Assembly: GCA_021789565.1 (NCBI GenBank)
Contig: JAJYJL010000770.1
Span: forward strand, 1-5,001
Direction: 5' to 3'
Source of the DNA: Acidobacteriota bacterium
GTDB lineage: Bacteria > Acidobacteriota > Terriglobia > UBA7540
DNA: 5,001 bases
The stretch's first letter is position 1. Every line of letters begins with the position of its first letter. A program made the position numbers and the translations under genes. The notes beneath the pieces are model-generated. The model had not been told where the DNA came from and searched no databases. It saw only the letters and a program-made list of their open reading frames with translations. Positions 1 to 5,001 of this stretch are shown one piece after another.

Positions 1-1765
1 GAATCCGACACGCCTGGAGCAGCGCCTTGGTCGAATCCACCGCATCGGCCAGGAGCGTGACGTACACGCCTTCAATTTCGTCGCGAGCGAATCCGAACAA
101 GGCCAGGACATCATTGAGGGCCGCATCCTTGAGCGGCTGCTACAGAAAATGGAGCAGATGCGGACCGCACTGGCGGACCGCGTTTTTGACGCTATCGGTG
201 AAGTTCTATCACTGAACGATGTCAATCTGCCGGAAATACTGCGCGAGGCGGCCAACGACCCTCGGCGTTTGGATGAATACCTCGATCAAATCGAGCGTGT
301 TGACCCTCAGCGACTACTCCAATACGAGCAGGCTACAGGAATCGCACTGGCGCGTGCGAACGTGGACTTTTCGGGTTTCCAAGCTGCAAATGCCGAAGCA
401 GAAGAACGCCGCCTAATGCCTCGCTATGTCGAGCAGCACTTCTTAAACGCGGCTCGAGAGATCGGCCTGAAGGTCGAGGCCCGTGCTGACGGCCTATACC
501 GCGTTGAACATGTTTTGGCCGACCTGCGCTCCGATCGGCTTGCCGGCGTGCGAAGGCTGGGAAAACCCGAGGCGGCGTACCGCAAGCTTACATTTCACAA
601 AGAACATCTGGAATTGGATCAGCACATTGACGCCGTGCTAATCGGGCCTGGCCATGCGCTCTACGCCGCTGTTGACGAGCGCCTGAATGAGATGCTCGGG
701 GCGGTCACGTCTGGTGTCGGCGTATTCGTGGACACGAACAGCGAAGCACCTTATCAACTGCACTTCTTTGAGATGGCTGTGCGCGGCCAGAACACGAAGG
801 GCGAGACGCAGACGCTTTTAGGAGAGTTGGTGGCTGTAAGGGAAGAAATATTGAGCAATGAAGAGCGTTTCTCGATAGTTCCGGCAGATACCTTGCTCGA
901 TCTGCCCGCCCACCCGGCCGCGCCAGAGAACCTTGAACCAGAAGATGTCACGCCAGCGGCCGACTTCCTCAAGAGCACTTACCAAACGCAGCGTCGCGGC
1001 GAGTGTCAGCAAGAGCGGCAACACTTTGTCCAGGTTTGCCGCGACTATTTGCAAGAGTCCTTCAAGGCGCGTATCCGAGCCGCGCAAGATCGCGTCATGA
1101 GCCTCAAGGCAAGGGAAGGGCGCGAGCCCGAAGTGGCCATTGCTCGCCAGAGAGCCGAGAACGACCTCGCCGATCTCGAACGGACTCGCACCGAGCGTCT
1201 TGAAGGGTTGCAAAGACTGACTTTGGCCAAGCATGCCCCCGTGCGCCACGTGGCTAGCGCGTTGGTACTCCCGAGTACACGCTCGGTCGAACAGCAAATC
1301 GGCGCCGTTCTCGATGACCTCGACCCCGAAGTGCGGCGCAAGTCCGAAATCGCTGCTGAGGATGTCGTCATTGCCTACGAAACAGGCCGTGGTTTCGAGT
1401 GCGAGCGCGTAGGACACATGAAGATTGGGTTTGACGTGCGAAGTCTTGGCCCCGCCGATCCACAGACCGGCTACCGCGATCCGGTGACCGGCATACGCCG
1501 CATCGAGGTCAAAGGGCGTCAGCGCGGTCAGCCCATCCGACTCACAACAAATGAGTGGTACAAGGCGATGCAACTAGCGGACAGTTATTGGCTTTATGTG
1601 GTTTGGAACCCGCTCGACAATCCCGAGTCCGAGCCGCTGCGAATTCAGAACCCAGTGAAGCACCTCGATCATGCCAAGCGCGAGGTCATTGCGGCACGCT
1701 ATTACGATATTCCTGCGGATGCGATAGAAGGAGCAGCAGAAAAGCAGAGGGAGTTGCTTCCGTGA
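1..1765 (+). CDS. SNF2-family helicase with C-terminal DUF3883 domain (5'-truncated)
   Basis: This is the C-terminal 587 residues of an SNF2/DEAD-like helicase. The frame is open from base 2 (base 1 ends a cut codon), so the real start lies left of the window; the ATG at 149 is only an internal methionine. The first visible residues form helicase motif VI, QRLGRIHRIGQ (bases 20-52), with the arginines expected to contact ATP at the RecA-domain interface. A long linker follows, containing a charged, probably coiled-coil stretch (about visible residues 355-410) with many R/E/A/L residues. The C-terminus looks like DUF3883: GFD (Asp at bases 1433-1435), then IEVKG (Glu at 1505-1507, Lys at 1511-1513), then TTNEWYKA and YWLYVVW. 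The D...ExK spacing is that of PD-(D/E)xK-like folds, so nuclease or DNA-binding activity is possible but unproven. The family translocates on DNA using ATP; DISARM DrmD is a related type. It is translationally coupled to the methyltransferase downstream through a 4-base overlap. Family assignment is strong; the role in phage defence is inferred from the neighbours. Confidence 0.92.
   Translation, partial: NPTRLEQRLGRIHRIGQERDVHAFNFVASESEQGQDIIEGRILERLLQKMEQMRTALADRVFDAIGEVLSLNDVNLPEILREAANDPRRLDEYLDQIERVDPQRLLQYEQATGIALARANVDFSGFQAANAEAEERRLMPRYVEQHFLNAAREIGLKVEARADGLYRVEHVLADLRSDRLAGVRRLGKPEAAYRKLTFHKEHLELDQHIDAVLIGPGHALYAAVDERLNEMLGAVTSGVGVFVDTNSEAPYQLHFFEMAVRGQNTKGETQTLLGELVAVREEILSNEERFSIVPADTLLDLPAHPAAPENLEPEDVTPAADFLKSTYQTQRRGECQQERQHFVQVCRDYLQESFKARIRAAQDRVMSLKAREGREPEVAIARQRAENDLADLERTRTERLEGLQRLTLAKHAPVRHVASALVLPSTRSVEQQIGAVLDDLDPEVRRKSEIAAEDVVIAYETGRGFECERVGHMKIGFDVRSLGPADPQTGYRDPVTGIRRIEVKGRQRGQPIRLTTNEWYKAMQLADSYWLYVVWNPLDNPESEPLRIQNPVKHLDHAKREVIAARYYDIPADAIEGAAEKQRELLP
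1746..1753 (+). promoter_or_regulatory. Ribosome binding site for the DUF1156 methyltransferase
   Basis: The purine run AGAGGGAG ends 8 bases before the GTG at 1762 and lies inside the last codons of the helicase gene. It decides the start. The frame is open back to an ATG at 1555, but that ATG would put 69 unrelated residues in front of the conserved DUF1156 N-terminus and overlap the helicase's DUF3883 domain. Confidence 0.75.
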
Positions 1766-4695
1766 ACGAGGATAAACGGCTCATTGAGGATTACCTGCCG
1801 ATTGAGAAAATCAGCGCGGAGGCGTCGCGAGAAAAGTCTGTCCGCCAGGGACACATCTCGACTCTTCACCTGTGGTGGGCGCGGAGGCCCTTGGTCGCGT
1901 GTCGTGCTGCCGTATATGGCGCGCTAGTGCCGGCTTCCCGATTTGTCCCAAACGGGGCGACCGATGAGAAGAAGAAATCTCTCGGTCGCGCAAACACAGC
2001 GAAGTTCATCGACCGGCTATGCCAATATCCAGGTACTCCGACAGTCATTGCCGAGGCGCGACAACACATTCTCGAAGCGCACGCGGAGCGACTAACGCAA
2101 GAGACAAAAAAGAAGGTCACCGTCCAAGATATCGAGCAGGGACGGGCAGCGCGACCGAAAGTTCTGGATATGTTTGCAGGGGGCGGTGCGATACCACTCG
2201 AAGCTTTGCGGCTAGGTTGTGAGGCGCACGCACTCGACCTCAATCCTGTCGCCCATATCATCGAGCTTTGTACGCTTGCTTACCCAGAACGGTATGGCCG
2301 CCCTGATCCCAAGTCACACGGCTGCGCATCCGGTGGTTCGTGGGCTGGGCTGCCGGAAGAAGTAAAGCACTGGGGGGAGTGGGTATCGCAGAAGGTCGAA
2401 GGAGAAATCGGCGATCTTTATCCATTCTTGGCCGACCCAGACTACAAAGGAAAGCGTCGAGAAACGAACGTCGAGCTGTGGAAGACTGGTCAAAATACAA
2501 AAATACCGCCTGGTTATCTACAGCCCATTGCTTTTCTGTGGGCGCGTACCGTCACATGCAAGAATCCAACGTGTAGAGCATCAGTACCTCTGCAACGGCA
2601 GACTTGGTTGTGCAAAAAGGACCGCAGGTGCGTTGCACTGCGAGCGGTCGCTCCAAGAGGCAAGAAGCGCGTCACATTTGAAGTGGTAGAAGATCAATCT
2701 CCGAAACGACTGGGTTTTGATCCCGACGCAGGTTCGAGCGCGGGAAACGCGACTTGTCCTTTCTGCGGGACGGTCTGTGACAGCGATTATGTAAAACAGG
2801 AGGGTTGTTCACATCGACTGGGGGAACAACTGATGGCCGTTGTTTCGACTCGGGAACATGAAACGGGGAAAATCTATTTTTCTGGAGAGGAGTGCACTTC
2901 GGTCGCTGACAATGAATCTGTCAAAAGGCGAATTGAATCGTTACTGAACCGGACTGGATTGACAATCCCTGACGAACCAATCACTACCGATGCAAAGAAT
3001 AGTTGTTGGACTCCTCTATATGGTTTAACCACGTTCGGTGATCTGTTCACCCGCCGTCAGATGCTATGCCTCTTGACCTTCGCTGCCGTGGTTCGTGAAG
3101 CGACGGTAGAAATGAAGAGTTCGGGATATGAGGACGATAGAGCGAAGGCGTTGGCAACCTATTGTGGTTTGTTGGGATCACGATTGGCCGACTGGAATAG
3201 CACGATCTCTCATTGGATTACTGTTGGAGAGAAGGTCTCAGACACCTTCGCGCGGCAAGCGATCCCGATGTGCTGGGATTTTTCCGAAATCAATCCCTTC
3301 GCCAAGGTTTCCGGGAATTCTCGCGATTCGTTAGAGCGGATGGTCGAGGCGCTTGAATGCCACCCTGTCGAAGTAAAGCCTCATGTCGAACGTGGAACTG
3401 CGACGAAATTGCCTTGGCCGGACTCTACGATGGATGCGGTAATTACGGACCCGCCTTATTATGACAATGTCCCATATTCAGATCTGTCAGATTTCTTCTA
3501 CGTGTGGCTCAAGCGTAGCATCGGCGCGCTGTACCCCGAGCACTTCGCCGCCAAAGGAACTCCAAAGAAGGCGGAGGCAGTTGCAGATGCAACCCGCCAT
3601 GCTGGTTCCCGAGACGAAGCTCGAATTTTTTATGAGCAAACTATGGGACATGCTTTCCGGGAAGCGCACAGAGTGCTGAAATCAGACGGTGCGATGGTTG
3701 TGGTCTACGCACACAAGACCACTCTCGGATGGGCTACCCTGGTGGATGGACTGCGACAAGCCGGTTTTATCGTTACTGAAGCATGGCCTCTGGATACCGA
3801 AAAGCCGGGGAGGCTGAGGGCGCAAGAATCCGCTGCCCTTGCGTCGAGCATATTACTGGTCAGCCGGAAACGTGACAACCAGGAGATTGGCCAGTACGAG
3901 GAAACCGTCCGGCCCGAACTGGAAATCATCGTTCGTGAGCGTGTCGCCTCGCTCTGGGAGTTGGGTGTTTCGGGAGCAGATTTAGTGATTTCGTGTGTTG
4001 GCGCTGGCCTTCGAGCCTTCACTCGGTATGCCAAGGTTGAATATGCGAACGGCGAAGTGGTACCGGCTGAACGGTTCTTAACCGAGGTTGAGACGGCCGT
4101 TCTGGAGACCATCCTTGCCCGCATATCCAGAGAGGTCGGCGGCAACGGAGGCCGGTACGGTTTGCCAACCGTAGATCCGTGGACCCGTTTCTACACGCTC
4201 TGGCGATACACGTACAAATCAGCAGAGCTCGACGCTGGTGAAGCCATTATTTTTGCCAACGGAACCCATGTTGAGTTGGACGGACAATTGGGCCTTTCGT
4301 ATGGATCTCGACCATTGATAGAAAAGAAGAAAGCAAAATATCGCCTACTTGACTACTCTGAGCGTGGCGACGACGCGAAGTTGGGCTTGCCATCAGAAGA
4401 TGGACAATCAGCGCCGCTGGTTGATGCTCTGCATCGCCTTCTATGGCTGATGGAGCGGCATCCCTCCGGCATCCCGGAGTTCCTGCGTGAAGCGCGGCCA
4501 AACACCGAGCAACTGCGCTTGGTTGCGCAGGCGCTGGCGGGCCCGGCGCTGAAGGGCGGTGAGTTGGGTGAAGTGGCCAGCGGCAGCGAACTCGCCGCTT
4601 TAACAAAGTTGACTGCGAACTGGCGCAGCGTGGTTGAAGACCCAGCAGGACCAGCCGAGGGGCCATTGTTCAAGGCGGCAAAACTGCGCGAGTAA
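1762..4695 (+). CDS. DUF1156 zinc-ribbon DNA methyltransferase (COG1743-like, probably adenine-specific)
   Basis: The protein has 977 residues, within the usual 900-1000 range of the family. The GTG start overlaps the helicase stop (GTGA), follows a good Shine-Dalgarno sequence and places the conserved DUF1156 block directly at the N-terminus (DYLPIEKISAEASREKS, HLWWARRPL; residues about 6-57). AdoMet motif I is LDMFAGGGAIPLEALRLG (from residue 135), with the motif II acid probably D159. A long middle region (about 165-555) carries paired cysteines C266/C271 and C332/C335 (CPFCG), read as a zinc ribbon. The catalytic motif is DPPY at 563-566, followed by YDNVPYSDLSDFFYVW, a hallmark of this family. 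A typical HRVLKSDG turn lies at 636-643. DPPY points to exocyclic amino methylation, most likely N6-adenine; N4-cytosine cannot be excluded. The motif order (AdoMet site, long insert, DPPY) resembles alpha-class enzymes, so the insert may read the target. It probably marks self DNA for the helicase/ATPase partners encoded on either side. All key motifs are intact. The target sequence cannot be predicted. Confidence 0.93.
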   Translation: MNEDKRLIEDYLPIEKISAEASREKSVRQGHISTLHLWWARRPLVACRAAVYGALVPASRFVPNGATDEKKKSLGRANTAKFIDRLCQYPGTPTVIAEARQHILEAHAERLTQETKKKVTVQDIEQGRAARPKVLDMFAGGGAIPLEALRLGCEAHALDLNPVAHIIELCTLAYPERYGRPDPKSHGCASGGSWAGLPEEVKHWGEWVSQKVEGEIGDLYPFLADPDYKGKRRETNVELWKTGQNTKIPPGYLQPIAFLWARTVTCKNPTCRASVPLQRQTWLCKKDRRCVALRAVAPRGKKRVTFEVVEDQSPKRLGFDPDAGSSAGNATCPFCGTVCDSDYVKQEGCSHRLGEQLMAVVSTREHETGKIYFSGEECTSVADNESVKRRIESLLNRTGLTIPDEPITTDAKNSCWTPLYGLTTFGDLFTRRQMLCLLTFAAVVREATVEMKSSGYEDDRAKALATYCGLLGSRLADWNSTISHWITVGEKVSDTFARQAIPMCWDFSEINPFAKVSGNSRDSLERMVEALECHPVEVKPHVERGTATKLPWPDSTMDAVITDPPYYDNVPYSDLSDFFYVWLKRSIGALYPEHFAAKGTPKKAEAVADATRHAGSRDEARIFYEQTMGHAFREAHRVLKSDGAMVVVYAHKTTLGWATLVDGLRQAGFIVTEAWPLDTEKPGRLRAQESAALASSILLVSRKRDNQEIGQYEETVRPELEIIVRERVASLWELGVSGADLVISCVGAGLRAFTRYAKVEYANGEVVPAERFLTEVETAVLETILARISREVGGNGGRYGLPTVDPWTRFYTLWRYTYKSAELDAGEAIIFANGTHVELDGQLGLSYGSRPLIEKKKAKYRLLDYSERGDDAKLGLPSEDGQSAPLVDALHRLLWLMERHPSGIPEFLREARPNTEQLRLVAQALAGPALKGGELGEVASGSELAALTKLTANWRSVVEDPAGPAEGPLFKAAKLRE

Positions 4696-4708
4696 GAACC
4701 ATCCGAAT

Positions 4709-4712
4709 GGAG
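4709..4712 (+). promoter_or_regulatory. Ribosome binding site for the DUF499 gene
   Basis: GGAG lies 9 bases before the ATG at 4722, in the 26-base gap after the methyltransferase stop. An in-frame TGA at 4716-4718, one codon before the ATG, rules out any start further upstream. The site therefore supports 4722 as the true start. No terminator-like hairpin with a T run occurs in the gap, so the gene is probably read on the same transcript. Confidence 0.7.
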
Positions 4713-4721
4713 TGCTGACGC

Positions 4722-5001
4722 ATGAGCGCAACACAGAGTAATAGGTCAACCGCAATCAAACCCTGGATAGAAGTGGCGGCACTTCACCCCGATGTGGTGT
4801 CGGAGCACTTCTCCGAGGACATCTTTGCGCTGGACCTTGGCCCCCTGGCTGATGGCAAGCCGAGCGTTCCAGCCGTTTACCGCGATCCCGAGCACTTCTT
4901 CCGCGTTTCCTACCTGACCAAAGGCTTGCGCTCGCTGCTCGAAGACGTGCTTTCACGCCTCAGCGACGGCGCCGGCAACCGCGTGCTGAAACTTCTGACG
5001 C
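4722..5001 (+). CDS. DUF499-type ATPase, N-terminal fragment (3'-truncated)
   Basis: Ninety-three codons are visible before the window ends, with no stop. After a short polar leader (residues 1-11) comes IKPWIEVAALHPDVV (12-26), matching the 'L-K-P-W-x-E-V-A-x-P-H-x-D-V' opening I recall for DUF499 proteins. Next come YRDPEHFFRVSYLTKGLRSL and a stretch ending RVLKLLT, which in this family leads straight into the Walker A loop (TPFGGGKTH-like). That loop would fall just past the right edge, so ATP binding is expected from the family, not seen. Family members are large (around 1000 residues) P-loop ATPases encoded beside DUF1156 methylases and helicases in anti-phage loci. I recall PglY/BrxC of BREX as related ATPases, but with less certainty. 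The position 26 bases after the methyltransferase indicates one operon. The role is likely that of a motor or regulatory ATPase of the defence complex; substrate and activity are unknown. Family call fairly sure, function inferred. Confidence 0.85.
   Translation, partial: MSATQSNRSTAIKPWIEVAALHPDVVSEHFSEDIFALDLGPLADGKPSVPAVYRDPEHFFRVSYLTKGLRSLLEDVLSRLSDGAGNRVLKLLT

Follow-up and report, generated by a model that had tools for sequence, protein, structure and literature searches.

The 5001-nt stretch of DNA analysed here (the window) carries three open frames on the + strand, the 3' part of hmaA, the complete hmaB and the 5' part of hmaC (Table 1). The hmaA stop and the hmaB start overlap by 4 bases (GTGA), hmaB and hmaC are separated by 26 bases with a GGAG at 4709–4712, and no embedded gene occupies either junction. 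The three same-strand genes spaced −4 and +26 of the initial annotation are borne out by the frames, the overlap and the gap. The longest frame of hmaB begins with the GTG at 1555 and would encode 1046 aa; that start was rejected in favour of the GTG at 1762 because the nearest homologue, P0002, starts at the latter position. P0002 is also 977 aa long, with 100% of the query covered. Among the 120 proteins listed, the closest to HmaB is 83% identical over its full length and is encoded on a 22 kb contig.

Table 1. Coordinates of the features of the window and of the broken gene ends ('scars') at the hmaA–hmaB junction of related loci
Feature	Position	Strand	Description
hmaA, 3' part	2–1765	+	587 codons, open 5' end; helicase end, linker region, predicted C-terminal nuclease domain
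NOV_C/DUF3883 domain	1346–1627	+	Predicted PD-(D/E)XK nuclease
Putative catalytic residues in GFD...IEVKG	1433–1513	+	Codons of D 1433–1435, E 1505–1507, K 1511–1513
AGGGAG (1748–1753), ribosome-binding-like site, and GTG start of hmaB	1748–1764	+	From sequence
hmaB	1762–4695	+	Complete, 977 aa, DUF1156 DNA amino-methyltransferase (predicted)
DMFAGGG, putative SAM-binding motif I of hmaB	2167–2187	+	From residue 136
Variable insert of hmaB	2362–3441	+	About residues 201–560, probable target recognition region; CxxxxC and CPFC zinc-knuckle-like motifs
DPPY, putative catalytic motif of hmaB	3448–3459	+	Residues 563–566
hmaC, 5' part	4722–5001	+	93 codons, open 3' end; N-terminus of DUF499 AAA+ ATPase
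Scar	L001 8859–9008		
Scar	L002 6763–7077		
Scars	L013 4290–4379 and 5254–5301		
Scar	L024 7392–7550		Part of a fusion (7392–7553) of hmaB codons 1–28 in frame to hmaA 3' end
Scar	L030 9891–9941		
Scar	L033 8970–9068		
Scar	L046 7569–7730		

The best PADLOC matches of the three products were HmaA (178.1 bits, 5.7e-53, model positions 596–1148 of 1176), HmaB (458.6 bits, 9.6e-138) and HmaC (58 bits, 1.3e-16, residues 11–93 aligned to positions 2–82 of 941), confirming the Hma-type operon proposed in the initial annotation. The search with defence-system models that had been suggested there gave no better score for DISARM or BREX. In Pfam, the visible piece of HmaA matched NOV_C alone (51.2 bits), the current name of DUF3883, and HmaB matched DUF1156 (90.6 bits), both above the cut-off; the visible 93 aa of HmaC had no Pfam match, DUF499 included. 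The SNF2 ATPase core falls outside the window, and the term SNF2 helicase comes from the PADLOC HmaA model and from the full-length HmaA of a related locus (L001), in which Pfam finds SNF2-rel_dom, Helicase_C and NOV_C. Full-length HmaC proteins of relatives do match DUF499 (128.9 bits in L001, 90.0 in L003 and 115.4 in L068). The gene families named initially therefore stand directly for DUF3883 and DUF1156, and by way of the PADLOC models and the L001 relative for SNF2 and DUF499, neither of which has a Pfam match in the window pieces.

In the HmaC of L068, a HEPN_Swt1 domain precedes DUF499. Of 51 HmaC proteins of relatives, 18 contain a recognizable PFGGGK P-loop; since it starts at residue 85–102 in 17 of the 18 (at 188 in L015), the edge of the window lies close to the expected P-loop site. 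The 93 residues of HmaC in the window, which precede that site, gave no HEPN match, and this copy therefore appears to be of the kind that has no N-terminal HEPN domain. The trio recurs on annotated plasmids (e.g. L095, L100 and L101) with products named DUF3883/helicase, DUF1156, and DUF499 or Swt1-HEPN. The window holds the middle of a real Hma operon that extends past both window edges and is ordinary for its kind.

The HmaB methylase and the C-terminal domain of HmaA

HmaB has the layout of an amino-methyltransferase, with DUF1156, motif I at residue 136, a variable block and DPPY at 563. The stretch DMFAGGG is what we take to be the SAM-binding motif I. In an alignment of 44 of the 120 listed proteins, D136, F138 and G140–G142 of this motif are invariant and M137 and A139 vary; all four residues of D563, P564, P565 and Y566 are invariant. 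Mean identity to the window protein, calculated in blocks of 40 residues, is 0.37–0.69 in residues 201–560 as against 0.72–0.85 in residues 1–160 and 0.64–0.80 in residues 561–960. Judging from sequence, residues 201–560 are probably the target recognition insert, and the position of this block agrees with the placement of such inserts in the methylases of BREX-Related (BR) systems (PMC12839542).

The HmaB protein has been labelled an m5C methyltransferase (PMC8565338). The PADLOC HmaB model is named DNA-adenine methylase. The DPPY motif is a mark of amino-methylases (the N6-adenine/N4-cytosine class) and does not tell N6-adenine from N4-cytosine enzymes. Because HmaB carries DPPY, an amino-methylase appears likelier than an m5C enzyme. 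The structural model of the whole HmaB was weak (pLDDT 75.1, pTM 0.58). Its best PDB match had an E-value of 0.015, with none at 0.001; the top matches were mostly methyltransferases (TTHA0409, then CcrM) at E-values of 0.015–0.025, too weak for a claim about the fold. A search of PDB chains with the HmaB profile gave no match.

The C-terminal NOV_C domain of HmaA is predicted to be a PD-(D/E)XK nuclease and retains the catalytic residues. The D, E and K do not vary in any of the 43 sequences aligned (the window and 42 of the 59 listed relatives), and the model of the domain (pLDDT 92.3) matches the structures of the PD-(D/E)XK enzymes Hjc, NhoI and EcoRV; a search of the PDB by sequence with the HmaA piece gave no match. 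The initial annotation was headed by the remark that no separate restriction nuclease was in view. As a statement of absence this does not hold, as the DUF3883 named there is this PD-(D/E)XK domain. The nuclease identity of NOV_C/DUF3883 is itself already known (published in 2013 and 2026), and the apparent gap is thus filled by a domain that has been described before.

To view the domain across the family, we used the best 80 of at least 575 confirmed loci from a genome scan, in 63 of which a usable hmaA lies upstream of hmaB; the other 17 were dropped (hmaA of less than 60 bits or less than 550 aa), mostly at contig ends. The nuclease motif is kept in 61 of these 63 hmaA genes, a count biased toward NOV_C-bearing copies by the choice of relatives for similarity to the window: 56 were recognized by pattern and five more by eye (L028, L034, L062, L077 and, with ESK, L052). 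The remaining two, L043 and L063, are split frames, and there was no readable case of a separate nuclease replacing a lost NOV_C among these loci. A nuclease fusion has been reported in 79% of the taxa examined in PMC12839542.

The gene order, the protein families, the catalytic residues and the nuclease fold of the model make up a picture in which, with good confidence, the Hma trio is a three-protein restriction-modification-like machine. HmaB would mark self DNA by methylating amino groups, probably at N6 of adenine, with its variable insert recognizing the target sites. The HmaC AAA+ ATPase would assemble or license the complex. The SNF2 motor HmaA, which carries the PD-(D/E)XK nuclease at its C-terminus, would move on unmarked incoming DNA and cut it, so that cutting would depend on methylation; we infer a defence role for the window operon on this basis. 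The same architecture, with a modelled restriction-modification-like mechanism, is given in PMC12839542, which also cites a 2024 antiphage paper, and the initial remark that the mechanism is little described is out of date.

The hmaA–hmaB junction in related loci

Many relatives have a much longer hmaA–hmaB junction. The gap exceeds 500 bp in 39 of the 63 usable loci and 150 bp in 45 of them. In the 14 nearest loci, defined by an HmaA scoring more than 700 bits to the window, it exceeds 500 bp in 13 (1312–4400 bp) and is 231 bp in one; in the other 49 it exceeds 500 bp in 26. The gene-bearing nearest loci (L001–L004, L007–L010, L013, L017, L019, L024 and L030) have defence or toxin-antitoxin genes between hmaA and hmaB, whereas the window has none. 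We scanned 40 inserted ORFs against Pfam, most of them from 118 picked ORFs and some from the hmaB–hmaC space. Matches were obtained for 29, among them MqsA antitoxin, ParA-like, DUF4365, Schlafen-AlbA_2, DarT, Macro, GmrSD, HD, YhcG nuclease, ORF6N, UvrD, kinase-ORC and HerA-like proteins; PADLOC adds ApeA-, DarG- and PDC-M28B-like proteins (the last with a candidate model, 3.3e-31). Defence genes embedded in Hma operons have been reported (PMC12255303; PMC12988326), as have auxiliary effectors of BR systems (PMC12839542). The embedding itself is therefore already known; its mechanism may not be.

The inserted genes raise the question of which protein does the killing. If the trio only marked or sensed DNA, embedded accessory genes (type IV restriction enzymes, DarTG, Schlafen, YhcG, toxin-antitoxins) could kill or cut, and the HmaA nuclease would not be the main effector. 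The long junctions of 39 of the 63 relatives and 13 of the nearest 14 fit such an arrangement, as does the presence of GmrSD, DarT, Macro, YhcG, SLFN_AlbA_2, MqsA and HD among the 29 matches, but we consider it unlikely: the window has nothing at either gene junction, and the nuclease residues of HmaA are kept in L004, L007 and L030, which also carry embedded nucleases. With these residues kept beside embedded nucleases, the fused nuclease does not appear to be relaxed. The restriction-modification-like machine remains the preferred reading, and because the window trio is compact and has no embedded genes, any activity of it would be that of the core alone, which makes it a tidy test case.

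Relatives of HmaB were found in 208 of 72,556 plasmid records. Among viral contigs, the single-protein scan found no relative and the alignment scan found eight. The plasmid records, together with the toxin-antitoxin genes among the inserted genes, could be taken to mean that the operon is a plasmid-stability or epigenetic module, in which a methylase and its restriction partner mainly retain the element and phage defence is secondary. We regard this as very unlikely to be the main role, but it is compatible with the machine proposed above, since known restriction-modification systems serve both element retention and defence.

Several plasmid loci deserve separate mention. Three Thermus thermophilus plasmids (L089, L090 and L091) carry hmaA on the opposite strand; of the Fic genes that adjoin their hmaB, the one in pVV8 is intact and the other two are about 900 bp shorter, and the hmaB–hmaC space holds HicA/HicB as against HicB/RelE-type genes, one plasmid differing, between flanks that are 94–98% identical. 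In L093 (Synechocystis sp. B12) and L096 (Geminocystis sp. NIES-3708), relatives of hmaA lie in pieces near hmaB, which suggests decaying Hma operons on these cyanobacterial plasmids. In L106 (Aminobacter pMET2, 5436–15077) the gene order is reversed, with DUF499 first, followed by a small gene, DUF1156 and SNF2; the plasmid bears conjugal transfer genes, and the trio-profile scores are low.

The best lead from this analysis concerns broken gene ends at the junction. Searching each of the 80 loci by tblastn with the end of its hmaA and the ends of its hmaB and hmaC gave 13 matches other than the genes themselves. Nine of these, in seven of the 80 loci, are broken gene ends: L001, L002, L013, L024, L033 and L046 have a piece of the hmaA 3' end, and L013, L024 and L030 a piece of the hmaB 5' end (Table 1). 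All nine sit in the hmaA–hmaB space, which accounts for 78,457 of the 715,620 non-core bases. The other four matches are a short tandem repeat of the hmaC 5' end adjoining hmaC in L019 (6262–6436) and second HmaB-like methylase genes inside the operon in L027 (12907–15807, two matches) and L057 (4709–6958).

In L001, L002 and L013, the hmaA-end scar has 82–87% DNA identity to the hmaA of its own locus, more than to most other loci's ends over the aligned stretch, with the exception that the scar of L013 aligns at 86–89% with shorter stretches of L003 and L030. L024 has the order hmaA, Macro-domain gene, fusion of hmaB codons 1–28 to the hmaA 3' end, AAA gene, intact hmaB. The joint of the fusion is a shared SVR/VR, and each of the two embedded genes has its end on a start codon of hmaB, in one case that of the scar and in the other the real one. 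Such joints are compatible with a known mechanism in which one side pairs by homology and the opposite side is joined illegitimately. The stand-alone hmaA tail of L002 is unlikely to be a free nuclease, its D being lost (GFGTRSH for GFDIRSH).

It is quite possible, if still somewhat on the doubtful side, that the hmaA–hmaB junction is a docking site at which defence cassettes stack by recombination via the flanking core genes, leaving hmaA and hmaB scars, with the window as the empty state. Incoming DNA of another Hma operon would pair in hmaA (or hmaB) and be joined illegitimately on the other side; new cassettes would stack on old ones, and broken hmaA or hmaB ends would remain between them. 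The seven scar loci all are uncultured or metagenome-assembled (MAG) records and assembly error may be the source of the scars, but the scars diverge by 11–18% from the intact ends and those in L002 and L024 show decay. The same tblastn scan found scars in none of 28 further loci (the eight viral contigs, and 20 plasmid regions chosen among 60 listed of the 208 plasmid records), in 12 of which the hmaA–hmaB gap exceeds 500 bp; hmaA is decayed in two of these 12, L093 and L096. In L053, a profile search also placed a NOV_C-like piece in the hmaB–hmaC space (9951–10247, 47 bits), an exception to the rule of position. Because of these 28 loci, the uncultured or MAG origin of all seven and the L053 exception, we treat the scars as a lead and not as a result.

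No description of such scars was found in the literature searched by title and start of abstract; the Payne et al. 2024 preprint lies outside this coverage, and we therefore make no claim of novelty. PMC12839542 gave no match for recombination, remnant or pseudogene. If the scars are real, they would provide a mechanism for the known embedding in Hma operons and make the order of cassette gain readable. The window itself adds a further example to a defence type that is already widespread.

Comparison with known defence systems

Some similarity to DISARM and BREX is evident in secondary PADLOC matches, HmaA to DrmD (60.8 bits) and BrxH (40.8 bits) and HmaB to PglXI (57.5 bits), and DUF499 ATPases have been described as relatives of BrxC (PMC12839542), to which the HmaC of L001 scores 16.9 bits. 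The Hma models are clearly ahead, however, at 178.1 against 60.8 bits for HmaA and 458.6 against 57.5 bits for HmaB. The NCBIfam DISARM_DrmD model gives 35.7 bits against a cut-off of 610, and the DISARM core is not found here. PglZ has no match in the three window proteins or in the 40 inserted ORFs of relatives, a scope that leaves the window flanks outside. It is extremely unlikely that the operon is a DISARM or BREX variant instead of Hma.

Three types of BR systems centred on DUF499 offer a closer comparison. Type-3 BR combines a nuclease-less helicase with PglZ; the window helicase bears a predicted nuclease domain and so departs from this type, though PglZ may lie in the flanks. Type-2 BR (PLD/HKD-helicase, DUF3780, DUF1156, DUF499) has the DUF1156 and DUF499 proteins in common with the window, but its nuclease is at the N-terminus of the helicase and a DUF3780 gene is present (PMC12839542). 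DUF3780 is absent between the three window genes, the N-terminus of HmaA and the flanks lying outside the window, and it has no match in the 40 inserted ORFs of relatives. The NCBIfam models of Type-2 BR remain below their cut-offs, with 202.9 of 1000 bits for the DUF1156 protein and 16.1 of 1200 bits for the DUF499 protein.

The defence candidates embedded in Hma operons (Payne et al. 2024, via PMC12988326 and PMC12255303) are accessory genes inside the operon, as in most near relatives, and the window has none of them. A nuclease-Snf2 fusion from Halomonas meridiana with antiphage activity, known here by the title of Liu et al. 2024 as cited in PMC12839542, is equated with HmaA in that paper, a likeness drawn by title alone. 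Hma as defined in PADLOC (Payne et al. 2021; PMC8565338) has the same HmaA helicase, HmaB methylase and HmaC ATPase in one operon; that paper presents such helicase–methylase–ATPase trios as a candidate defence system, its available passages containing no phage test of Hma, and it calls HmaB an m5C methyltransferase, whereas the DPPY found here argues for an amino-methylase.

Hma corresponds to Type-1 BR, which comprises a DUF499 ATPase, a DUF1156 N6-methylase and a Swi2/Snf2 helicase with an active C-terminal PD-(D/E)XK domain in a simple three-gene layout (PMC12839542). The window shares the three-gene layout, the predicted DUF1156 amino-methylase, the predicted C-terminal nuclease domain and, by way of the PADLOC models and the L001 relative, the helicase and the DUF499 ATPase, and no difference is seen in the visible part; the N-terminal TUDOR domain of the Type-1 BR helicase and the C-terminal RRM of its ATPase fall outside the window. 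An N-terminal HEPN domain is present in HmaC of 1370 of 2446 Type-1 BR taxa (PMC12839542), and the window HmaC resembles the HEPN-less portion. The window operon fits Hma and, in the 2026 classification of PMC12839542, the DUF499-centred Type-1 BR system.
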